This document shows positions 36,579-49,359 of a stretch of 52,789 nucleotides of DNA, one piece after another (position 1 is the first letter of the stretch; each line of letters starts with the position of its first letter). The DNA comes from an uncultured Alphaproteobacteria bacterium. GTDB taxonomy: Bacteria; Pseudomonadota; Alphaproteobacteria; CAAGCB01; CAG-977. Where the stretch lies: positions 1-52,789 of the forward strand of contig CALYBD010000014.1 of the NCBI GenBank assembly GCA_944393745.1, read 5' to 3'. The notes under the pieces are model-generated. The model searched no databases. It saw only the letters and a program-made list of their open reading frames with translations, and was not told the DNA's origin. The position numbers were made by a program, and so were the translations under genes.

Positions 36579-36607
36579 TTGCCTGTTATTTTTTTATATC
36601 ATATAAT
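36579..36607 (+). promoter_or_regulatory. Sigma70-type promoter for the RNA leader and prepilin gene
   Basis: TTGCCT (36579-36584), a 17-base spacer, and a perfect TATAAT (36602-36607). Transcription would start near 36614, giving a leader of about 298 bases that spans the structured RNA before the ATG at 36912. Confidence 0.65.
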
Positions 36608-36645
36608 GCTATTGAAATATTCGGGATTTTCCCGGGTGTTTAAGT

Positions 36646-36887
36646 GCCTGAACAGGCGCGGAGCCTTCATAAGCTCTTGTAACAGCGGCGCAGATATGCG
36701 TCGATAACCGTTTTGCGTATCGTAAAACGGAAAATATCCCCGACTTCTTTGTGACGGTCGGGGAGCTTTTGGTGCATGTCCAGAGGATTCCCGTAATTAT
36801 CCTTGAAAAAACGGAAATTCTTAAAGACCCGAAGGATCAATCTGTTACTTGATTTATGAACTCCCCGGCCGCCTGAACAGGCGGTTT
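36646..36887 (+). ncRNA. Structured RNA, copy 1 (unrecognised family, leader of prepilin-like gene)
   Basis: Hairpins in order: GCCT/AGGC (36646-36657); GAGC/GCTC with GGCGCGGAG (36655-36676); CGGCGCA-GATA-TGCGTCG (36686-36703); CCGTTTTGCG-TAT-CGTAAAACGG (36708-36730); CCCCGAC/GTCGGGG (36738-36763); ATTCCCGT/ACGGAAAT (36787-36818, imperfect); ATCAA/TTGAT (36836-36853); and CCGCCT-GAAC-AGGCGG (36869-36884) followed by TTT. GGTCGGGGAG (36756-36765) can instead pair with CTCCCCGGCC (36861-36870). The same order occurs in copy 2, with compensatory changes. Known classes recalled (tmRNA, 6S, RNase P, TPP, cobalamin, lysine) do not fit. It may be a cis-regulatory leader or a free RNA ending at the last hairpin. 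Confidence 0.75.
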
Positions 36888-36911
36888 ACTTTTATGTTAC
36901 AGGGAGTCGAA

Positions 36912-37493
36912 ATGAGAAATTTTCATTCACAGGAAACCGGCCGTTCCATGGTCGAAATGCTGGGCGTTCTGGCAATTGTCGGCGTTTTGTCGGTCGGCGG
37001 CATTGCGGGGTATTCTCAGGCAATGTCGAAATTCAAAGTAACAAAAGCTATGGATCAGGTGCAGACCATTATCCAAAATATCCGTACTTTGTATGCTTCA
37101 CAGCGGAGGTATAGCTCTTTGAAAGGAGAAAGCGCCTATCAGATAGGTATTTTGACAGATGAAAATTATGACAGTGAATCAAAACAGGGATTAAATCCTT
37201 TTGGGGGCTCTATCACATTCGGGGCAACGGAATCAGGGCGTTCGTTTTTGCTGTCATATTCCGGGTTAACGACAGAAGCCTGCGTAAAAATGGCAACCGC
37301 GGACTGGGGCGCCGACGAATCTTCAGGATTGCTTTCCATCACGATCGGAGCAGCAATGAACGACGAAGCAACGACAGCACCGGCGGGAACATCATTTACC
37401 TGGAATGATGCTAACAACAGTTTACCCGTAGATGTTGCCACGGCCACAACGGCATGCAGCACGACGAATGCCGTAACCTGGGAATACCGTTAA
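36912..37493 (+). CDS. Prepilin-like protein with type IV N-terminus
   Basis: 193 residues from the ATG at 36912 (AGGGAG upstream). The prepilin signature is TGRSMVEMLGVLAIVGVLSV: a Gly before the cleavage point, Glu at +5 and a long hydrophobic helix that packs into the pilus core. The residue after the cut is Arg instead of the usual Phe or Met. Residues 60-193 form a Ser/Thr/Ala-rich globular head with cysteines TEACVKM and TACSTTN that could form a disulfide. No prepilin peptidase, ATPase or secretin genes are nearby, so it relies on a machine encoded elsewhere. The 5' leader contains structured RNA copy 1. Function: pilus, pseudopilus or surface fibre subunit. Confidence 0.8.
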   Translation: MRNFHSQETGRSMVEMLGVLAIVGVLSVGGIAGYSQAMSKFKVTKAMDQVQTIIQNIRTLYASQRRYSSLKGESAYQIGILTDENYDSESKQGLNPFGGSITFGATESGRSFLLSYSGLTTEACVKMATADWGADESSGLLSITIGAAMNDEATTAPAGTSFTWNDANNSLPVDVATATTACSTTNAVTWEYR

Positions 37494-37605: not shown

Positions 37606-37633
37606 TTGGTAAAAAAACAAACTCTTGTATAAT
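37606..37633 (+). promoter_or_regulatory. Promoter of ygfM-xdhD
   Basis: TTGGTA (37606-37611), a 16-base spacer and TATAAT (37628-37633), with the ygfM ATG at 37661 and AGAGG between. Confidence 0.55.
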
Positions 37634-37660
37634 AGCCGAAATTATTTTTCAGAGGTCGAA

Positions 37661-38431
37661 ATGATAACGGAATTTCTTAAACCGAAAACAATAATCGAAG
37701 CCGTCCAGTTAAAACAGGCAACGCCTGATGCCGTTTATATGGCGGGCGGTTCCTGGATCAATTCGTCCAGATCCGCCATGAATCCCGAAACGGTCATCAG
37801 TCTGAACGAATTGGATTTGAACTTTATCAAGCAGGATCAGGATACGCTTCGCATCGGTGCGATGACAACACTGCAAGATATTTTAGACAATGATCTGATC
37901 CCTGATTATATCAAGGGCAATCTTAAATTATTCCGCAATCGCAATATTCGCAACCAGGGCACTTTGGCCGGTGCGATTGCGGCTAAGAATCCGGCTTTTT
38001 CGATTTTAACGGTTTTGATCGCCGCAGAGGCGCAATTGGAAACGCCGACAGAAGAAATCAGTGTCGAAAAATACGTCACTTCGGATTGTTCCGCTTTGAT
38101 TTTAGCGATTCGCATACCGTTAAAAGCCGCCGTTTGCTCAAACAAGCATTCCATAACGGCGCGCGGTGTCAGCTTGGTGTCTGTCGCGGCAGGCGTATTT
38201 GAAAAGCAAATTCATCTGGTCGTCGCGCAGGACGGAGGCAAAATCGAACGTCTGACCGATCTGGAAATCGCGTTGAACGGGGATTCTCTGCCCGACCGGG
38301 ACGAACTGGCGGAAAAGGTATCAAAAGTGGTGGCGTCTTTTGACGACTACAGAACGTCCGCGGCCTTTAAGAAATATATCGCGGGCGTCATGCTTGCCGA
38401 TTGTCTGATCAAAGCGGCGAAGGGAGTGTAA
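37661..38431 (+). CDS. ygfM: FAD-binding subunit of molybdenum hydroxylase, YgfM-like
   Basis: 256 residues from the ATG at 37661 (AGAGGTCGAA upstream). Family features: YMAGGSWINSSRSAMNP, with the GGSxx FAD-phosphate loop, LRIGAMTTLQDIL, and RNRNIRNQGTLAGAIA, the second FAD segment. The C-terminal CO-dehydrogenase flavoprotein domain follows. It carries electrons between the molybdenum subunit and NAD or another acceptor. It is two bases upstream of the xdhD-like gene, and the pair matches E. coli ygfM and xdhD (the xdhD resemblance is strong in memory, the ygfM one weaker). Confidence 0.85.
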   Translation: MITEFLKPKTIIEAVQLKQATPDAVYMAGGSWINSSRSAMNPETVISLNELDLNFIKQDQDTLRIGAMTTLQDILDNDLIPDYIKGNLKLFRNRNIRNQGTLAGAIAAKNPAFSILTVLIAAEAQLETPTEEISVEKYVTSDCSALILAIRIPLKAAVCSNKHSITARGVSLVSVAAGVFEKQIHLVVAQDGGKIERLTDLEIALNGDSLPDRDELAEKVSKVVASFDDYRTSAAFKKYIAGVMLADCLIKAAKGV

Positions 38432-38433
38432 AA

Positions 38434-41304
38434 ATGAAAATTTCTTTTACTCTTAACGGATTAAAAAAGACCGTTCTTACCGAAGCCGGAGAAAATGTTC
38501 AGGCTTTATTGCAACGCTTGGGCATCTTTTCGGTGCGCGACAGTGACGATCATCAGGGATTTTGCGGATCGGACACGATCATATTCAACGGAAAAACCGT
38601 TAACGCCGGTTTGTTGATTGCCGCCCAGATTGACGGAGCGGACATCAAGACAATCGAATCCGTTATGAAAGACGGGAAACTGTCCGCCGTTCAATCGGCA
38701 ATGGTCGACTGCGGACTGGTGCAGTCGGGATACAACTCTCCGGCGGCGGCGTTAATGCTGACCGGTTTATTGGAACGCAACCCCGATCCGTCAAAAGACG
38801 ACATCATGGACGCGTTATCGCCTTTGTTCAGCCGTTCCGCGGGCTATCAGCCGTTCTTCAAAGCGGTCGATCTGGCAAAGAAAAGAATGAAAGATCCGAA
38901 TTATAAAACCGAAGGCTTTACGGAATTTCGCGAAGATTTGCGCGAAGTCGGAAAAGTGCGCCGCAAAATCGACGGTCATCAGCTGGTTGCCGGACACAAA
39001 GCGTTTGTTGAAGACATGGTCGAACCGGGCACATGCATTTTAAAAATGTTGCAAAGCCCTTACGCGCACGCTTACATCACTTCGATCGACACGACCGAAG
39101 CCGAAAAAGTCCCAGGCGTCGTAACGATCATTACGCACAAAAACTGCCCCGATGTTTATTACACGAACGCGGGACAAGGCGCGCCGGAACCGTCTCCGCA
39201 CGACAGGAAGCTGTTCAATCAGAAAGTCTGCTATGTCGGCGACCGTGTCGCGGCCGTCGTCGCGGAAACCGAAGAAGCAGCCGATGAAGCGCTGAAAAAA
39301 ATCAAGGTGGAATATGAGGTTTTAAAGCCTGTCTTTACCTGGGACGACGCGCAGGCGCCCGATGCGCCGATTTTGCACAAATCGTTTGTGACGTACGGTG
39401 TCGGGGCTCCGGAAGATCTGGACGAATACAATAAAAACGCCGATCCGCGTGACGGTAAAATCCACTACCCCTTCCCTTTGCGCGCCGATCCGCATCACAA
39501 TCTGGCCGCCAGCGTCAAAGGCGGAATCGGTGACGTGGAAAAAGGCTTTCAGGAAGCCGATGTCATTATCGACAGAACCTTTGCCACAACGCAGATTCAA
39601 TGCACGCCGACGGAACCGCACGTCGTGTTTACGAAAATGCAGGGCGACCGCCTGGTTATTCATGCTTCGACGCAGGTGCCGTTCCATTTACGCCGCGTCG
39701 TCGCCAAAGTCCTCGGCATTCCCGAAACGAAAATACATGTCATCAAAGAACGTGTCGGCGGCGGATTCGGATCAAAGCAGGACGTTATTTTAGAAGATGT
39801 CGCCGCTTTTGCGACTTATTCAACGGGGCGTCCCGTCTATTACCGTTATACGCGCAATCAGGAATTTAACACCTGTTCGACACGCAAACCGATGCGCGTA
39901 CGCGTTAAAATCGGCGCAAAGAAAGACGGCACATTTACCGCCATTCAAATGGATAACGAAGCCAACACCGGGCCTTTCGGCGCGCATGCGTTGACCGTTC
40001 CGATGAACGCGTGTTCCAAAAACCTGCCGCTGTTTTTATGCCCGAACATGTACTTTACGGTACGGATTTATTATTCCAACATTATGCCGACCGGCGCTTA
40101 TCAGGGATACGGCGCGCCCAAAGGGGCCTTCGCTTTAAACAGCACGGTCGCCGAACTGGCCGAACAGCTGGGCATGGATCAGATCGAACTGATGCGTAAA
40201 AACATGGTGCACGAAGGCGCCGTTCTGGAAATCCTGCGCTGTCTGGGCGAAGGACGCGAAGGAACGCCGGCTTTGGTGCAAAGCTGCGGATTGGAAAAAG
40301 CGCTGGAAATCGGTTCAAAAATGATTGACTGGGGCAAAGAAGAAGCTTCGGACGATCCCGATATTAAAATCGGCAAAGGCGTTGCCATTATTCAGCAGGG
40401 ATCGGGGCTGCCGGGGCTGGATCATTCCAACGCCCATATTCTGATGCTGGCCGACGGCGGATTTTCTTTACATTCCGGAGCAGCCGACATCGGAACGGGT
40501 TTGGATACCGTTATGGCAAAAGTCGTTGCGGAAGTATTAAACGTACCGTTGTCTCAGGTCACCGTGATGAGCGGAGACACCGATCACACGCCGTTTGATA
40601 CGGGGGCTTACGCTTCTTCGGGAACGTTCTTTTCCGGAAACGCGGCGCGTCTGGCCGCCGAAGACATGAAGCAAAAAATTCTGCAAAAGGCCGCGGAATA
40701 TCTAAACGAACCGGTTGAAGACTGCGTATTGGAATACCCTGCGAAAGTCAAAGGCAAAAAAGGCGAAATCACATACGCGCAGATTGCCTATAACACGACG
40801 ACGGGGCACGGTTCCGGCCAGCTGCAGGGCATCGGTTCTTTTATTACGGAAAATCATGCGATTCCTTACGGCGCGAACTTTGCCGAAGTCGCCGTCAACA
40901 CCCGTACGGGAGAAATTGACGTGCGCAAGTTCTATGCCCTGCTGGATTGCGGCACGCCGATCAATCCCGAATTGGCGGAAGGGCAAGTCTTCGGCGGCGT
41001 GTTGAAATCCATCGGACATTCTTTGTACGAAGGCATTATTCTGGATAAAGACGGCAAGCCTTTAAACGACAATCTGCAGGATTACAACCCGCCGACCATT
41101 TACGACCTGCCCAAAGATTTTCAGGCGCCTCTTGTCTTTACAAAAGATCCGGACGGTCCTTACGGCGGCAAGTCGATTTCCGAACTGGCGACGAACGGCG
41201 CCGCGCCGGCGCTGGCCATTGCGATTCACAACGCCTGCGGTGTATGGATCCGCGAATGGCCCTTTACGCCCGAAAAGATCTTGAAAGGATTAGAAAAAAT
41301 CTAA
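38434..41304 (+). CDS. xdhD: Molybdenum hydroxylase XdhD-like, fused Fe-S-like and Mo domains
   Basis: 956 residues from the ATG at 38434 (AGGGAG upstream), the size of E. coli XdhD. Residues 1-150 are shaped like the two [2Fe-2S] domains of xanthine dehydrogenases, but most cluster cysteines are replaced: DHQGFCGSDTIIFNGK keeps one, and VDCGLVQSGYN and FSRSAGY lack the normal CGFC and CRCTG. Residues 190-956 are the Mo-cofactor part: GERVGGGFGSKQD-like KERVGGGFGSKQD, PTGAYQGYGAPKG, ADIGTGLDT and ISELATNGAAPAL with the catalytic Glu. Hydroxylates a purine or other heterocycle; suspected hypoxanthine-type enzyme. A related selenium-dependent gene set (ygfK, ssnA) is not present here. A strong terminator follows. 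Confidence 0.88.
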   Translation: MKISFTLNGLKKTVLTEAGENVQALLQRLGIFSVRDSDDHQGFCGSDTIIFNGKTVNAGLLIAAQIDGADIKTIESVMKDGKLSAVQSAMVDCGLVQSGYNSPAAALMLTGLLERNPDPSKDDIMDALSPLFSRSAGYQPFFKAVDLAKKRMKDPNYKTEGFTEFREDLREVGKVRRKIDGHQLVAGHKAFVEDMVEPGTCILKMLQSPYAHAYITSIDTTEAEKVPGVVTIITHKNCPDVYYTNAGQGAPEPSPHDRKLFNQKVCYVGDRVAAVVAETEEAADEALKKIKVEYEVLKPVFTWDDAQAPDAPILHKSFVTYGVGAPEDLDEYNKNADPRDGKIHYPFPLRADPHHNLAASVKGGIGDVEKGFQEADVIIDRTFATTQIQCTPTEPHVVFTKMQGDRLVIHASTQVPFHLRRVVAKVLGIPETKIHVIKERVGGGFGSKQDVILEDVAAFATYSTGRPVYYRYTRNQEFNTCSTRKPMRVRVKIGAKKDGTFTAIQMDNEANTGPFGAHALTVPMNACSKNLPLFLCPNMYFTVRIYYSNIMPTGAYQGYGAPKGAFALNSTVAELAEQLGMDQIELMRKNMVHEGAVLEILRCLGEGREGTPALVQSCGLEKALEIGSKMIDWGKEEASDDPDIKIGKGVAIIQQGSGLPGLDHSNAHILMLADGGFSLHSGAADIGTGLDTVMAKVVAEVLNVPLSQVTVMSGDTDHTPFDTGAYASSGTFFSGNAARLAAEDMKQKILQKAAEYLNEPVEDCVLEYPAKVKGKKGEITYAQIAYNTTTGHGSGQLQGIGSFITENHAIPYGANFAEVAVNTRTGEIDVRKFYALLDCGTPINPELAEGQVFGGVLKSIGHSLYEGIILDKDGKPLNDNLQDYNPPTIYDLPKDFQAPLVFTKDPDGPYGGKSISELATNGAAPALAIAIHNACGVWIREWPFTPEKILKGLEKI

Positions 41305-41438: not shown

Positions 41439-41484
41439 GTTGTTTAAGCTTTGTTAACTTTTGGTTAACAGGTCAGCGCTTAGC

Positions 41485-41729
41485 GGCGCGGAGTTGTGAA
41501 AGGCTCTTTGATCCTATGCGGCGCAGATATGCGTCGTTAAGCCGTTTTGCCAATGGTAAAACGGAAAATATCCCCGAACTCTTTATAGAGGTCGGGGAGA
41601 CTTTGATGTATGTCCAAGGAAGATCCCGGCTTATCCTCAAAAAAAAAGGGATCCCCCCAAAGATCAAAGTATCATTTCATAGGATATGATCTTTCAACTC
41701 CCCGGCCGCCTGTTATGGGCGGTTTTTTT
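41485..41729 (+). ncRNA. Structured RNA, copy 2 (leader of lipoprotein operon)
   Basis: Same order of elements as copy 1: GGCGCGGAG (41485) with GGCTCTTT; CGGCGCA-GATA-TGCGTCG (41519-41536); CCGTTTTGCC-AAT-GGTAAAACGG (41542-41564); CCCCGA with inner CTCT/AGAG and TCGGGG (41572-41597); GATCCC/GGGATC (41622-41653); AAAGATCA/TGATCTTT (41659-41694); CCGCC/GGCGG (41706-41722) followed by TTTTTTT. GGTCGGGGAG (41590-41599) pairs in the alternative fold with CTCCCCGGCC (41698-41707). Compared with copy 1, the inner pair G-C of the fourth stem is C-G here, and two stems have different sequences but stay paired. The last hairpin is a classical terminator before the ATG at 41756. Confidence 0.78.
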
Positions 41730-41755: not shown

Positions 41756-43042
41756 ATGAAAAAATTCATCACTGCTTTTTGTCTGACAACCGCGTTAAGT
41801 GCCTGCGGAACGGTCGGGGACGGCCCGACGCGTATGTTATCGGCCGTTAAGGGAAATGATTACCCCGAAGCTTTAAAAATTACGCAGGAAGAAAAATTTT
41901 ATGATTCCGAAGCCAATCAGCTTTTAAAAGCGTTGGACACGGGAATGATGCTTTATTTAAACAAAAACTATGCGGCTGCTTTGTCGTCCTTTGAAAAGGC
42001 AAAAAAAATCAGTCTGGATTTGCGCGCAAAAAGTCTGACAAAAACGGCGGCGGCGCAAGTTGTCGGCGACGGTGTTGCCGATTACGCCGGTGAAAGATAC
42101 GAAACGTCCATGCTGCGTTTTATGATTGCTTTAACAAACTATCACCTGCACATGAAAGATCCGAACAATACAAAATATGCCGACGGTCTGCTGGCAACGG
42201 CAAAGGATTGGGACGCGTTTGTCAATAATGCCGAAGAAGTTTATCTGGACATGATGCAAAAATCCTGGACAACGGTGGTCAGTCCTGAAAAATCCGCCCG
42301 TATGTATGCGGACATGAATAAAATTTTCAAAGAAGCTTATTCGACTTTGGCTTCCTTAAAGAAAAATTCGCAAAATGCCAAAGATTTTTCAGCCTTTACA
42401 AGCAATATCAAGGAATCACAAAATGCGACTTTGCACGTCATTTTCAAACAGGGCCTGATCCAGCCGAAAACGACGAAAAAAATTACGTTGCCTTTGGGAG
42501 CCCTGGTCAACAATCCCTTATACAAAATCCTGATCGGCAATGACGGAATTATATATGAATTAACCGTCATGAACAAACCGACAACGGCTCAACGTTTTAA
42601 TTTAACTATCAAAAACAGCGCCGGAAAAGTGATTCAGGAAAAGAAAATGGCTTTGATTTCTCCGCTCTCAGAACTGGCTTACAAACAGTTTAAAGATTCC
42701 GAAAAGAAACGAATTGCCGTCAAAAGCGCCCGGTTGCTGACAAAATACACCGCCGCCTTTGCCACAGCCAAACAGGCTTATGATAAAGCGAAAGAACCGT
42801 TCAAAAACGCCGCCGCCATCGCCGCGTTCAAAGGCGCGTCCAAAGCAATCGCCATGTCCGAATACGCTGATACGCGTTACTGGGAAATTCTGCCGGCCAA
42901 TATCTATCAGCAAAAAGCAGCCTTAAAAGACGGCAACTATACCGTTGAATTAAGCAAAGACGGAAAAACATTGTATTCGGAACAGATCAAAATCCAAAAA
43001 GGCTCCCCCGTTTTGGTCGATATTTCTTTGCCCAATGTTTAA
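41756..43042 (+). CDS. COG3014-like lipoprotein
   Basis: 428 residues from the ATG at 41756, with AAGGAG upstream. Lipobox LTTALSACG at residues 12-20: signal peptide of 17 residues, lipidated Cys at 18 (sequence LSAC). Residues 30-230 are helical with repeated Ala/Lys motifs (MLYLNKNYAAALSSFEKAKK, a TPR-like helix pair). The C-terminal half has beta strands (ITLPLGALVNNPLYKILI, PTTAQRFNLTIK). COG3014-type proteins occur next to LpoB-like genes. First gene of a four-gene operon; the leader is RNA copy 2. Probably outer-membrane anchored and facing the periplasm. Confidence 0.75.
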   Translation: MKKFITAFCLTTALSACGTVGDGPTRMLSAVKGNDYPEALKITQEEKFYDSEANQLLKALDTGMMLYLNKNYAAALSSFEKAKKISLDLRAKSLTKTAAAQVVGDGVADYAGERYETSMLRFMIALTNYHLHMKDPNNTKYADGLLATAKDWDAFVNNAEEVYLDMMQKSWTTVVSPEKSARMYADMNKIFKEAYSTLASLKKNSQNAKDFSAFTSNIKESQNATLHVIFKQGLIQPKTTKKITLPLGALVNNPLYKILIGNDGIIYELTVMNKPTTAQRFNLTIKNSAGKVIQEKKMALISPLSELAYKQFKDSEKKRIAVKSARLLTKYTAAFATAKQAYDKAKEPFKNAAAIAAFKGASKAIAMSEYADTRYWEILPANIYQQKAALKDGNYTVELSKDGKTLYSEQIKIQKGSPVLVDISLPNV

Positions 43043-43060: not shown

Positions 43061-43708
43061 ATGAAAACATTATTGACTATCCTCTTTTTAACCGCCGTCA
43101 CTTCGGGGTGCGCCGGGTTTAAGCCGGATTATGTAGTCCGTGACGCGTCGGAAAGCGACCGGCCGTCATGGATTGTTCAAAAAAACGCACATAAAAGCGA
43201 TAATTCCGGCAATAAAAAGAATTATCGTTATTATGTCAGCGATGCGGAAAACCCTGATCAAAATCTTTGCTTAAATCTGGCCGAAAGCAGAGCGACACAA
43301 AAAGTCGCTTCTGAAATTTCCCAGGAAATCATGAGCAAATTCAAGGAAACGGCCCGTTCCAAAGACGACGAATCCACACGCAGCGTTAAAAACGAACTGG
43401 AACGCAACATTCAGGTTAATTTGCACGGTGTTTCCGTCACCGGAAAATACTGGGAAAAACGCCAGTATTTAAAAGAAATGGGGGCGGAAAAAGACAAAAC
43501 CGGATACAAATGCGATGTTGCCGTACGTATATCCAATGCGGTTTTGGCAGAAGCTTTGGAAGCCTACAAAGCCAAGACATTGCGCACGCTGGCAAAAGAC
43601 GATCAACCGGCAATGAACGCTGCCGTTGACGCGACGATCGGATTGATTAAAACCGGTGCGCCTTTGGCCGGAGCCGTTTTGGAAACAGCCGCCGGAGCCG
43701 TTCAATGA
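43061..43708 (+). CDS. LPP20-like lipoprotein
   Basis: 215 residues. Lipobox LTAVTSGCAG at about residues 11-19, Cys after SG. The rest matches the LPP20/CsgG-neighbour pattern: PSWIVQKN, then NLAESRATQKVASEISQEIM, the helix that in LPP20 domains carries A-x-A-x-A-x-V. The C-terminus is hydrophobic (GAPLAGAVLETAAGAV), suggesting membrane association. GAGGAAAT before the ATG. Its TGA overlaps the next ATG in ATGA, so the pair is translationally coupled. Confidence 0.7.
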   Translation: MKTLLTILFLTAVTSGCAGFKPDYVVRDASESDRPSWIVQKNAHKSDNSGNKKNYRYYVSDAENPDQNLCLNLAESRATQKVASEISQEIMSKFKETARSKDDESTRSVKNELERNIQVNLHGVSVTGKYWEKRQYLKEMGAEKDKTGYKCDVAVRISNAVLAEALEAYKAKTLRTLAKDDQPAMNAAVDATIGLIKTGAPLAGAVLETAAGAVQ

Positions 43709-44640
43709 AAAAATATCCCGCTTTTTTATTGACCGCGGGAATGATTTGCGCCTCCTTTGCCGTGCAGGCAAAGGAGGACAAAATTCCCGTCTGGATATCC
43801 GATCCTTATGCCGTTTGCGATGAAAACGCCTTTTGCGCCGTCGGATCCGCAAATAATCTGAATGCCGCCGGAGCGCAGGCGCGCGCAGGAATTGCAAAAA
43901 TATTTCAGGCACGGGTTAAATCTTCCCTGTCTTCCTTAGTCGAATCAAATAACGACAGCGTTTCTTCCGCTGCCCGGCACAGCCTGTCCGAAGAATCCGA
44001 CGTTTTGCTAAAAACTGTTGAAATCAAAGAAACTTTCCGACAAAACGAAACTTTTTACGCACTGGCTTTTCTGGACAAGCAAAAAGCCGCCCGCATCGTC
44101 GCCGGCAAAATTGACGATCTGGATTCAAAAATGGAAGCCTTTTTGCAAGACGACAATGCCGCCTCTGCGCGCAAAGCCGAAAAGCTTTACGAACAACGCC
44201 GGGAATTAAACGAATTAATGATTGTCCTGACCGGTAAAGGTGTTTTGGAAAGCTTTTCATTCGCAGATGTTTTTAAAAACCGCAAAGAAAAAACAAAAGG
44301 CGGAGACATCTGTCTGAATATTATCGGCACAAAAAACAACACTTTTAAAAGCACCGTTAAAAACGTGTTTAAAGAAAACGGATACATCATCTCAAACGAT
44401 TGTTCAATCAAAGTCACCGTTTCGGTTCAGGCAAACCGGGAACCGACGGACATTGAAGGATTGGAAAAATATTCTTTCGGTTTTTCGGTAAAAGCCAAAG
44501 AAATCCTCAGCGGAAAACAAACCCTGCTGTTTGAAAGAAGTTTCAGCGAAGCCGGACAAAATGCCGATCAGGCTTTATCACTGGTAATTAATGATTTCAA
44601 ACAGGAACTGACGGAATCAATCGGTGACTTTTCATTTTAA
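43705..44640 (+). CDS. Periplasmic LPP20-like protein with type I signal
   Basis: 311 residues. Signal peptide MKKYPAFLLTAGMICASFAVQA, with a cut after VQA instead of a lipobox cysteine. The LPP20-like domain follows: IPVWISDPYAVCDENAFCAVGSANNLNAAGAQARAGIAK, with two cysteines that may form a disulfide. Residues 150-300 hold an alpha/beta part (CLNIIGTKNNTFKSTVKNV, GFSVKAKEILSGKQTLLFE). Probably a soluble periplasmic partner of the lipoproteins around it. Function unknown. Confidence 0.7.
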   Translation: MKKYPAFLLTAGMICASFAVQAKEDKIPVWISDPYAVCDENAFCAVGSANNLNAAGAQARAGIAKIFQARVKSSLSSLVESNNDSVSSAARHSLSEESDVLLKTVEIKETFRQNETFYALAFLDKQKAARIVAGKIDDLDSKMEAFLQDDNAASARKAEKLYEQRRELNELMIVLTGKGVLESFSFADVFKNRKEKTKGGDICLNIIGTKNNTFKSTVKNVFKENGYIISNDCSIKVTVSVQANREPTDIEGLEKYSFGFSVKAKEILSGKQTLLFERSFSEAGQNADQALSLVINDFKQELTESIGDFSF

Positions 44641-44656
44641 AACGAGAGGAATTACA

Positions 44657-45262
44657 ATGAAAAAAATCAACAGCTTATTTATCCTTGTTTTCATCGCCTG
44701 TCTGTCCGGCTGCGCTTCGCTTAACCCGTATATGAGCAAAGAAGACCAAATCGCAACAGCCGAATGGACAACACGCGACACAAACGATACGGCCGCGGCA
44801 ATCGTCAATAAAATCATTAACAGCAAAAGATTGCAAAGCTATATCCAAAAACGTCCGAATCAGGAAACGACACTTTACCTGGCGCAACTGGAAAATAAGA
44901 CCGACAAATCGGATATGGACGCCGCACGCGTTGCTTTGAATGCCGCGTTAAAAGAAAAACTGATTAATGAAGTCGACGGTTTCACGGTTATTGATCCCGA
45001 AAACAAAGCCATTAACAAAGAATTGGTTCGTCAGCGCGGCGGTTCCGTTAAAATGTCGGATATTGTTTCCGCCGCCCAAAAAAGCGGCGCGGACACACTG
45101 ATCACCGGCGTAATTTCAGGCGACCGGCACGATGTCGGCAATAAAACGTTTCAGGAATATACCTTTGATCTGCAAATCGTTGAGGTCAAAACAACAAAAG
45201 TTCTGGCAACAGCGCATCATACAGTCGAAAAACAGCAAAAGACACCGAAGTTTCGCTGGTAA
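44657..45262 (+). CDS. LpoB-like penicillin-binding-protein activator lipoprotein
   Basis: 201 residues from the ATG at 44657 (AGAGGA upstream). Lipobox ACLSGCASL, Cys after SG. Then an LpoB-style fold: TTRDTNDTAAAIVNKIINSK, YLAQLENKTDKSDMDAARVALNAALKEKL, FTVIDPENK and ADTLITGVISGD, matching LpoB-type YcfM proteins in order. LpoB spans the periplasm and activates the bifunctional peptidoglycan synthase PBP1b. It ends the operon COG3014-like, LPP20-like, LPP20-like, LpoB-like, which occurs in other Gram-negatives (from memory). A strong terminator follows. Confidence 0.8.
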   Translation: MKKINSLFILVFIACLSGCASLNPYMSKEDQIATAEWTTRDTNDTAAAIVNKIINSKRLQSYIQKRPNQETTLYLAQLENKTDKSDMDAARVALNAALKEKLINEVDGFTVIDPENKAINKELVRQRGGSVKMSDIVSAAQKSGADTLITGVISGDRHDVGNKTFQEYTFDLQIVEVKTTKVLATAHHTVEKQQKTPKFRW

Positions 45263-47607: not shown

Positions 47608-49359
47608 TTATTCCTCTTTAAGCGTTTCCGGATTTACCAGATACTGTTGAATATCAACCTGATCAATCTGGCTTTCTTTCATATATTGTTCGGCATATTC
47701 CTGATAAACGCCCGAAGTCAAGAACAAATTAAACAAATCGGGATCAATGTGGCCGCCTTTTGCCATACCGGACATAATGGAGATAATCTCGGACATCTTT
47801 TTAATTTTTTTATACGGCCTGTCGCTGGACGACAAAGCTTCGAACACATCGGCCAGACCTAAAATACGCGCCGGGACAGACATTTGTGAACGCTTCAGAT
47901 GATTCGGAAAACCCGTTCCGTCCATATGTTCGTGGTGACCGCCGGCATATTCGACAACATTTTTAATATGCGCCGGGAACGGAATGGCTTTTAACATTTC
48001 AATGGTCATATCGATATGGCTGTTGATTTTTTTGGCTTCTTCGGGGGTCAGAGTTCCCCGCGCGATAGAAAGATTATGGATTTCCCCGCGGTTATATCCG
48101 CCGAAAATATGATCCGGCCGGTCTTCCAGCAACGGTTCATGCGGATTTGTCTTTGGCGGCATATTGTCTTTGATGCGTTCGGCTTCGTCCCAGGACAGCC
48201 CCAACGTTTTATCAAAGTAACGATAGTACGTTTGTTTGGCAATTTCATGAACCCGCTGAATTTCCTCTGCGGACAAAATATCGTATCCGACATTGGACTT
48301 TGCCAGAAAAGCAAAATCGTCTTCCAGTTTTTTGACACGAGCATTAAATTCGGCCAGCAGCAAATCTTTCGGTTCCGTTCCGGCCAGCCGTTTTTTCAAA
48401 TAATCGATATGCGCGTCTCGGCGCAGAATTTCAAATCTGGCACGGATTTCGTGAATACGGTTATTAACGGTTTCAAGCTTTGTCGCCTTGTCCAGAACAT
48501 ATTCGGGCGTTGTGACTTTGCCGCAATCATGCAGCCAGGACGCCAAATGAAAAGCGTACCATTCGTCATCGGACATTTCAAAATCTTGGAATACCCCGTC
48601 CTGAGCCATAACGGCCGCCAGTGCCATCATACGCGCAATAACGGGAACGCGCTGACAATGCGCGCCGGTATAAGGAGACTTATCGTCAATGGCACGGGCA
48701 ATAACCTCTAAAAAAGCTTCCAGAACGTTTTTCTGCGATATCAGCAGCAGCTGGTTGTCAATGGCAACGGCGGCATGAGATGCCAGAGCCTCCACCAATC
48801 TTTGCATGGATTTTGAAAAACTGATTGTTTCGCCGGATGGCGCACAGGCGTTGATCAGCTGTAAAACGGCAACGACCTGTCCGGTTCTGGTTTTCAAAGG
48901 AACCGTTAAAAACGATTTTGATCTGTACCCTGATTTTTTATCGAATTTATGCGTGCCCGAAAAATCAAACTTTGTCGAATCGTAGGCATCGGGCACGTTG
49001 ACGATTTCGTCGGTCAGCGCGGCATAAGTGGAAATATTGGAATAGTTGGGTTCATTGGTTTCCGGGTCGTACAGGTACAAAGGCGGAAAAGGAATTTCCT
49101 TTTTTTCGGACGTACCGCCCATTTTAATGCCCAGCTTATCGTTATGCAGAATGGAAAAAACCAGCTGATTTTGCGCCGGATCCATCAGGTACAGCGTGCC
49201 CCCTTCCGCGTTGCAGAATTCCTTTGCAGCGGTCAGGATATTTTCTAATAAAACGTCCATATCCTGCTCGGCCGAAAGAGCGATGCCGATATTAAAAAGG
49301 CGATCCAATTCTTCTGCCGACAAGGAAACGGCGTCATCGGTTCCGTTATCGTTTACCAT
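47608..49359 (-). CDS. GAF and HD-GYP domain protein, probable c-di-GMP phosphodiesterase
   Basis: 583 residues, cytoplasmic. A GAF domain at residues 20-190 (LFNIGIALSAEQDMDVLLENILTAAKEF, TLYLMDPAQNQLVF, SFLTVPLKTRTGQVVAVLQLIN). An HD-GYP domain follows at 220-560: ASWLHDCGKVTTPEYVLDKA (HD), SHIDMTIEMLKAIPFP, GGHHEHMDGTGFP (the GYP position reads GFP), and LADVFEALSSSDRPYKK. Metal-site His and Asp residues are kept. It should hydrolyse c-di-GMP to pGpG or GMP. Its start has GGAAGAGGG upstream. First gene of an operon with rsmE. Confidence 0.9.
   Translation of the reverse strand: MVNDNGTDDAVSLSAEELDRLFNIGIALSAEQDMDVLLENILTAAKEFCNAEGGTLYLMDPAQNQLVFSILHNDKLGIKMGGTSEKKEIPFPPLYLYDPETNEPNYSNISTYAALTDEIVNVPDAYDSTKFDFSGTHKFDKKSGYRSKSFLTVPLKTRTGQVVAVLQLINACAPSGETISFSKSMQRLVEALASHAAVAIDNQLLLISQKNVLEAFLEVIARAIDDKSPYTGAHCQRVPVIARMMALAAVMAQDGVFQDFEMSDDEWYAFHLASWLHDCGKVTTPEYVLDKATKLETVNNRIHEIRARFEILRRDAHIDYLKKRLAGTEPKDLLLAEFNARVKKLEDDFAFLAKSNVGYDILSAEEIQRVHEIAKQTYYRYFDKTLGLSWDEAERIKDNMPPKTNPHEPLLEDRPDHIFGGYNRGEIHNLSIARGTLTPEEAKKINSHIDMTIEMLKAIPFPAHIKNVVEYAGGHHEHMDGTGFPNHLKRSQMSVPARILGLADVFEALSSSDRPYKKIKKMSEIISIMSGMAKGGHIDPDLFNLFLTSGVYQEYAEQYMKESQIDQVDIQQYLVNPETLKEE

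Follow-up and report, generated by a model that had tools for sequence, protein, structure and literature searches.

A family of structured leader RNAs arranged like the phage P1 c4 locus precedes accessory genes in Alphaproteobacteria

The window analyzed here, a stretch of 52,789 nucleotides from an uncultured alphaproteobacterium (GCA_944393745.1, contig CALYBD010000014.1), carries on its forward strand two copies of a structured RNA element, at 36643-36890 (copy 1) and 41475-41728 (copy 2), each co-oriented with the gene behind it. Copy 1 precedes a type IV prepilin-like gene (PilS/Bundlin by Pfam; 36912-37493) and copy 2 a lipoprotein gene predicted from sequence (41756-43042), downstream of which Pfam identifies an LPP20 lipoprotein gene (43705-44640) and then an LpoB-like gene (44624-45262). 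Molybdenum hydroxylase genes, encoding FAD-binding and molybdopterin-binding domains, lie between both copies (37625-41304). A candidate sigma-70-like promoter upstream of copy 1 (TTGCCT-17-TATAAT; 36579-36607) comes from a consensus scan that returned 2 such sites against 0.9 expected by chance. The two copies share 80% column identity over approximately 245 nt and fold more stably than their dinucleotide shuffles (z = -7.45 for copy 1 and -6.91 for copy 2, with 0/200 shuffles as stable). Both lie where the initial annotation placed them; the strings it listed as common to the two copies, and most of the paired changes it read between them, are likewise present.

From 5' to 3', the element comprises hairpin P1, hairpin P2 with strand a1 in its loop, strand b1, hairpins P3 and P4, strands A and B, P6 with P7, hairpin P8 with strand b' in its loop, strand a', strand C and a terminator-like hairpin. 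In copy 1, P1 (GTGCCT/GGCGC; 36644-36659) corresponds to pairs kept with two-sided changes in the family, P2 (GAGC/GCTC; 36661-36676) bears a1 (CATAA; 36668-36672), and b1 (GTAACAG; 36679-36685) pairs with b' as judged by a register-free swap test. The loop of P3 (36686-36703), GATA (36693-36696), can pair with TATC (36735-36738) just before A, a pseudoknot found by both alignment and swap test. The family alignment further delineates P4 (CCGTTTT/AAAACGG; 36708-36730), A (CCCCGAC; 36738-36744), which the fold also shows as the local partner of B, P6 (CTTTTGGT/ACCCGAA; 36766-36833) around the variable hairpin P7, and a' (TTATG; 36854-36858). Strand B (GGTCGGGGAG; 36756-36765), defined by swap test and by comparison with the Rfam family RF02221, pairs with A or C, and its first G is predicted, by analogy, to be the mature 5' end of a C4- or sRNA-Xcc1-like RNA. 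P8 (ATCA/TGAT; 36836-36853) presents b' (CTGTTAC; 36842-36848), again by swap test. Strand C (CTCCCCGGCC; 36861-36870) can pair with B, with GGAG at P2, or with the ribosome-binding site GGGAGT (36902-36907); directly after it reads GCC (36871-36873), an RNase P-like RCC, and a terminator scan places the terminator-like hairpin, with a weak T tract, at 36867-36886.

Copy 2 scores 175.6 bits with covariance model R1, in whose training set it is included, and 45.9 bits independently with model R2. It features a1 (TGAAAG; 41497-41502) in the P2 loop, b1 (ATCCTATG; 41511-41518), A (41572-41579), B (41590-41599), b' (CATAGGAT; 41678-41685), a' (CTTTCA; 41691-41696), C (41698-41707) and a terminator-like hairpin (41704-41724), which overlaps C as it does in copy 1. 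The minimum-energy fold predicted for both copies joins a1b1 to b'a' and A to B. In copy 1 the long-range pairs are those of the P2 loop CATAA with UUAUG and of GUAACAG with CUGUUAC; in copy 2 they are UGAAAG with CUUUCA and AUCCUAUG with CAUAGGAU. The previously listed stem ATCAA/TTGAT does exist, but only as the foot of P8, the strong signal being this long-range pairing, which had not been listed; similarly, CTCCCCGGCC at the 3' end is part of the terminator but also pairs with GGTCGGGGAG.

Neither copy matches Rfam 15 at its cut-offs, and copy 1 has no match below E = 1 either, so that the statement that the element was not recognized was a fair one; tmRNA, 6S, RNase P and known riboswitches were set aside for want of an Rfam match. 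It had also been described as a two-copy family, which is wrong. Its own genome holds 5 loci by blastn and 8 by covariance model. Blastn also recovers copies from 9 bacterial-family genomes and from 1 genome of another family. Model R1, made from the 28 copies that form alignment A2, finds approximately 80 places across the bacterial family, where 11 of 12 genomes carry the element (at least 8 times in the own genome and 17 times in one relative), and, across the class Alphaproteobacteria, matches in 22 of 289 genomes and 17 of 224 genera. A pattern scan of named genomes returned at least 114 stretches, with strand C in place in 63 and a few (e.g., L191 and L278) resembling chance matches; the real copies include those of Rhizobium, Shinella, Methylobacterium, Paracoccus, Hoeflea, Acidocella, sphingomonads and Acidobacteria such as Granulicella. 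A scan of plasmids gave 385 matching records, mostly from Agrobacterium and Rhizobium. Since R2, built from this wide branch only, recovers the window copies independently (E of about 1e-13 to 1e-9 in the own genome), the window and wide branches constitute one family.

The true number of copies per genome exceeds the R1 count, as sub-types with a GGGCGG-type closing helix lie beyond that model: they occur at C37:144-229, C27:30638-30723, C25:37440-37525, C12:41210-41296 and C15:13249-13333 of genome G000, with 13 further places of this layout in G004, they score 32-41 bits with RF02221, and those read have a1/b1 upstream. A mobile element (an insertion sequence or HEARO/omega RNA) was ruled out, as copies within one genome are about 75% alike, co-oriented with a gene and individually coded. 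Two copies (L152 and L157) lie shortly behind tyrosine recombinase-like genes, which fits spread on integrative elements, and two others (L120 and L128) combine an unusual, near-identical 5' half with an ordinary 3' half, which suggests recombination between copies. At contig ends in G002, G006 and G007, four copies (L094, L097, L107 and L116) read CTCCCCGATATG and then the common sequence CGCTTTTTATCG..GTTTTAAC.., as if a repeat or recombination joint had taken the terminator's place.

In nearly all family copies, the co-oriented gene begins approximately 10-70 nt past the element. These genes encode prepilins, AT-like surface proteins, PEGA lipoproteins, acyl- and glycosyltransferases, EcoRI-type, C5 and N4/N6 DNA methyltransferases and PD-(D/E)XK nucleases; those of the wide branch encode AraC and HTH regulators and are carried by plasmids of Agrobacterium and Rhizobium. 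These genes are accessory and often mobile. No common pathway or transporter set was found among them, and a phage antirepressor operon lies behind neither the window copies (prepilin and lipoprotein) nor the family copies, being found in gammaproteobacterial relatives. The reading frame behind the element at L226 presumably resembles the quorum-sensing antiactivator TraM, and what we take to be a LuxR/TraR-like gene lies further on, on the other strand, at L226, L247 and L251. The claim of one RNA family before unrelated genes is strongly supported. A metabolite riboswitch, in which a ligand bound to the conserved multi-helix core would select A:B or B:C and thereby control the terminator-like hairpin and the ribosome-binding site, would account for a large conserved 5'-leader structure whose mutually exclusive helices overlap that hairpin. 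It is nevertheless improbable, given the absence of a common pathway among prepilins, PEGA lipoproteins, DNA methyltransferases, glycosyltransferases, AraC/XRE regulators and phage antirepressors, and given that the a and b strands are the most variable and act as locus-specific codes, where an aptamer would rather keep an invariant pocket.

Selection on the RNA structure, as had been proposed from two copies, is strongly supported by covariation, the family search and swap tests. RNAalifold on A2 detects two-sided changes in 31 of 51 pairs, the long-range helix included. Across 40 wide cores, 57 pairs are 88.4% paired compared to 78.7% in shuffles, with 262 two-sided cells compared to 90, and this signal is lost when the partner is slid by 1-3 columns. 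In the same cores, a1:a' is 99.6% paired, with G-C, A-U, C-G and U-A all occurring at one pair, and b1:b' displays two-sided changes at all 6 pairs. Swap tests of b1:b' gave -8.6 versus -2.5 kcal/mol in the family and -14.0 versus -6.6 kcal/mol in the wide branch (0/2000 in both), and register-free swap tests gave 0/2000 each for a1:a', the P3 pseudoknot and B:C; the last was assessed on family copies, its covariation not being demonstrable on alignment A4, whose rows were picked by the exact B pattern. A pairing of GTTCA with TGAAC, between the P6 loop and the strand before C, showed no covariation by eye, and no conserved ORF for a leader peptide was seen. In the wide branch (e.g., L177, L195, L211 and L215), a conserved hairpin, GCGG-GGGCGYA-CCGC, follows C, and its loop covaries with that of P1 (TACGC with GCG, TACGT with ACG), a likely kissing loop that is absent from the window branch.

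Several of these strands have alternative partners: B pairs with A or C, GGAG at P2 with GCTC or C, and a1 and b1 either lie in loops or pair with a' and b'. The element accordingly has two mutually exclusive conserved folds, one of a1b1:b'a' with A:B, the other of P2, P8 and B:C. The long-range helix is private to its locus. In six genomes, the own a1b1 is the best partner of the own b'a' in 42 of 44 within-genome comparisons (6/6 in the own genome), and for copy 2 the own pairing reaches -17.1 kcal/mol compared to -2.8 to -6.7 kcal/mol with other copies.

The Rfam check found a relative outside the window. A distant alphaproteobacterial copy, L159, matches sRNA-Xcc1 (RF02221) at 56.2 bits, above the cut-off of 53 bits; the window copies have no such match, and the highest score in the family genomes is 40.7 bits, at other loci. 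The RF02221 consensus is exactly B-P6-P8-C, starting at B and with B:C as its outer helix. Upstream of RF02221 loci from across the phylum, most of the sequences read hold the P2/a1/b1 half that the model lacks, followed by a linker (GCGG..AACCGCA..TTGCGGTATTTTTGTGTCC) that is present in phage P1 too. Many leaders at these loci also carry a and b again around the ribosome-binding site (for example, CCCCGAAAAGGAGCAACAAGACCATG at L349), and b'a' pairs far better with its own upstream half, and with its own leader near the start codon, than with those of other loci (0/5000 in either test). The genes behind include SymE, Bro-N, KilA-N, P22_AR_N and Rha. An early idea, a riboswitch aptamer with three pseudoknots, was dropped once RF02221 loci proved to have the 5' half upstream and to repeat the a and b strands around start codons. 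sRNA-Xcc1 itself is 88 nt long by RACE (PMC2996969) and is described as a trans-acting small RNA in a title cited in PMC12444791. That description, together with the terminator-like end, would suit independent small RNAs that act in trans, have terminators of their own and merely happen to be upstream of genes, a reading rendered very improbable by the co-oriented gene some 10-70 nt downstream of nearly all family copies and by antisense strands that match their own downstream leader and not others.

Phage P1 presents the same anatomy. In its record, a1 (48255-48261) and b1 (48269-48276) precede the C4 RNA (48343-48419), which is followed by a2 (48423-48429), b2 (48452-48459) and icd (from 48470); the locus scores 68.8 bits with C4 (RF01695) and 51 bits with c4-a1b1 (RF03163). 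Mature C4 (77 nt) begins at the first base of its closing helix and ends ..GCCACC. According to Hartmann 1995, as cited in PMC4919922, the C4 precursor is matured by RNase P, the RNA of which needs a 3' RCC(A) (PMC12710915). Of 51 family copies, 34 have an RCC after C, as do both window copies (GCC), and 17 of 40 wide copies have ACCA there, like the end of a tRNA; by analogy with C4, the copies are probably RNase P-processed. The window copies match none of the Rfam models C4, c4-2 and c4-a1b1, RF01695 has no match in the 12 family genomes in a search run without a positive control, and R2 does not recover phage P1 C4. As the likeness is one of layout and pairing logic, convergence is possible. 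Taken with RF02221 and R2, the anatomy of phage P1 indicates that the element is not a wholly new class.

Pairing of b'a' with the start-codon region, the counterpart of a2/b2, is evident over the family set (0/10000) and individually clear in about 10 of 40 copies, and the control region from +150 to +205 of the same genes gives no signal. In the window copies a2/b2 is weak (ranks 0.50 and 0.25), and in the wide branch neither b'a' nor P1 shows any pairing with downstream sequence. Strand C complements the ribosome-binding site of both window copies as read from sequence (ACTCCC/GGGAGT and AACTCC/GGAGTT), with a marginal test of C against the leader in the family (139/5000); in the L070 and L071 sub-group, B, C and leader change together, from GGGGAG/CTCCCC/GGGGA to GGGGGG/CCTCCC/GGGGGA. 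With all pairing partners in one transcript, a2/b2 weak in many copies, and both the terminator-like hairpin and the complementarity of C to the Shine-Dalgarno sequence in both window copies, a purely cis-acting bistable leader or attenuator is conceivable: A:B, B:C and a1b1:b'a' would rearrange on the nascent transcript and set termination and Shine-Dalgarno access with no free antisense RNA. It remains rather unlikely, as the related sRNA-Xcc1 (88 nt) and phage P1 C4 (77 nt) are separate RNAs starting at B, and it leaves the RCC after C without a role.

In our judgment, the copies are likely to be antisense leaders of the C4 type that have passed from phage immunity to accessory genes of the chromosome. 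Transcription would begin upstream of P1 and cross first the target half, where a1 occupies the P2 loop and b1 follows, and then the antisense half on the 3' side, made up of B, P6/P7, P8 (its loop holding b'), a' and C. In one fold, a1b1 would pair with b'a', extended by GGAG:CUCC, with B on A and the antisense strands locked in cis. In the other, B:C would form a closing helix resembling a tRNA acceptor, followed by RCC, with P2 and P8 showing a1 and b' in loops; this is the form that RNase P, if it acts as on phage P1 C4, would cleave immediately 5' of B (predicted positions 36756 and 41590). The antisense RNA so released, of approximately 90-130 nt, could use b'a', and in the window branch also C, to block the ribosome-binding site of its own downstream gene; the transcript could end at the hairpin that follows C. 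We infer action in trans and repression as the output, along with a means of relieving it; taken together, these would make a locus-specific switch, off by default, before an accessory gene.

A broader proposition is to our minds evenly balanced: that a phage-immunity device of the C4 type now serves Alphaproteobacteria and Acidobacteria, in domesticated form, as a genome-wide set of orthogonal off-switches, each with a private code, on genes for surface proteins, restriction-modification and plasmid regulators, with up to 17 or more independent codes in a single 2-Mb genome and without an Rfam counterpart. The analysis joins three things unlinked in the literature searched, namely an alphaproteobacterial leader RNA, the orphan sRNA-Xcc1 and phage P1 C4; no connection between the latter two was found in that literature, which included few subscription papers. 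If this reading is right, sRNA-Xcc1 of Xanthomonas and Xylella, so far annotated as a virulence-linked trans-acting small RNA, would be the 3' half, released by processing, of an antisense switch encoded in cis, and symE, phage antirepressors, rhizobial and Agrobacterium plasmid regulators, DNA methyltransferases and prepilins would obey a single RNA logic under private codes of their own. The family also offers dozens of orthogonal RNA pairs as a natural library.

Among known systems, transcription-attenuating riboswitches share with the element mutually exclusive helices over a terminator-like hairpin, but the element has locus-specific pairing codes and neither a common pathway nor an identified invariant pocket. 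The sRNA-Xcc1 of Xanthomonas integron cassettes, found upstream of symE, equals the B-to-C half of the element, and distant alphaproteobacterial copies score above or below the RF02221 cut-off; however, it is annotated as an 88-nt small RNA, its Rfam model lacks the 5' a1/b1 half found upstream in the gammaproteobacterial loci examined, and the window copies stay below RF02221. Another C4-type Rfam RNA, c4-2 (RF02944), has a sub-threshold match near one RF02221 locus (L329). The C4 RNA of the phage P1/P7 immI operon has the same order of a1, b1, antisense RNA and gene, with a1 in a hairpin loop, and the same succession of closing helix, first hairpin, a second one whose loop holds b', a', closing strand and RCC. 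Unlike C4, to which no sequence model links it, the element bears the additional P1, P3 and P4 and a pseudoknot in its 5' half, a strand A that competes for B, many copies per genome, an a2/b2 target weak or missing in most copies, and surface, DNA-modification and regulator genes behind it in place of icd/ant. C4-type logic is known; what is new is a probable, unrecognized branch of it, with its gene targets and its many orthogonal copies.
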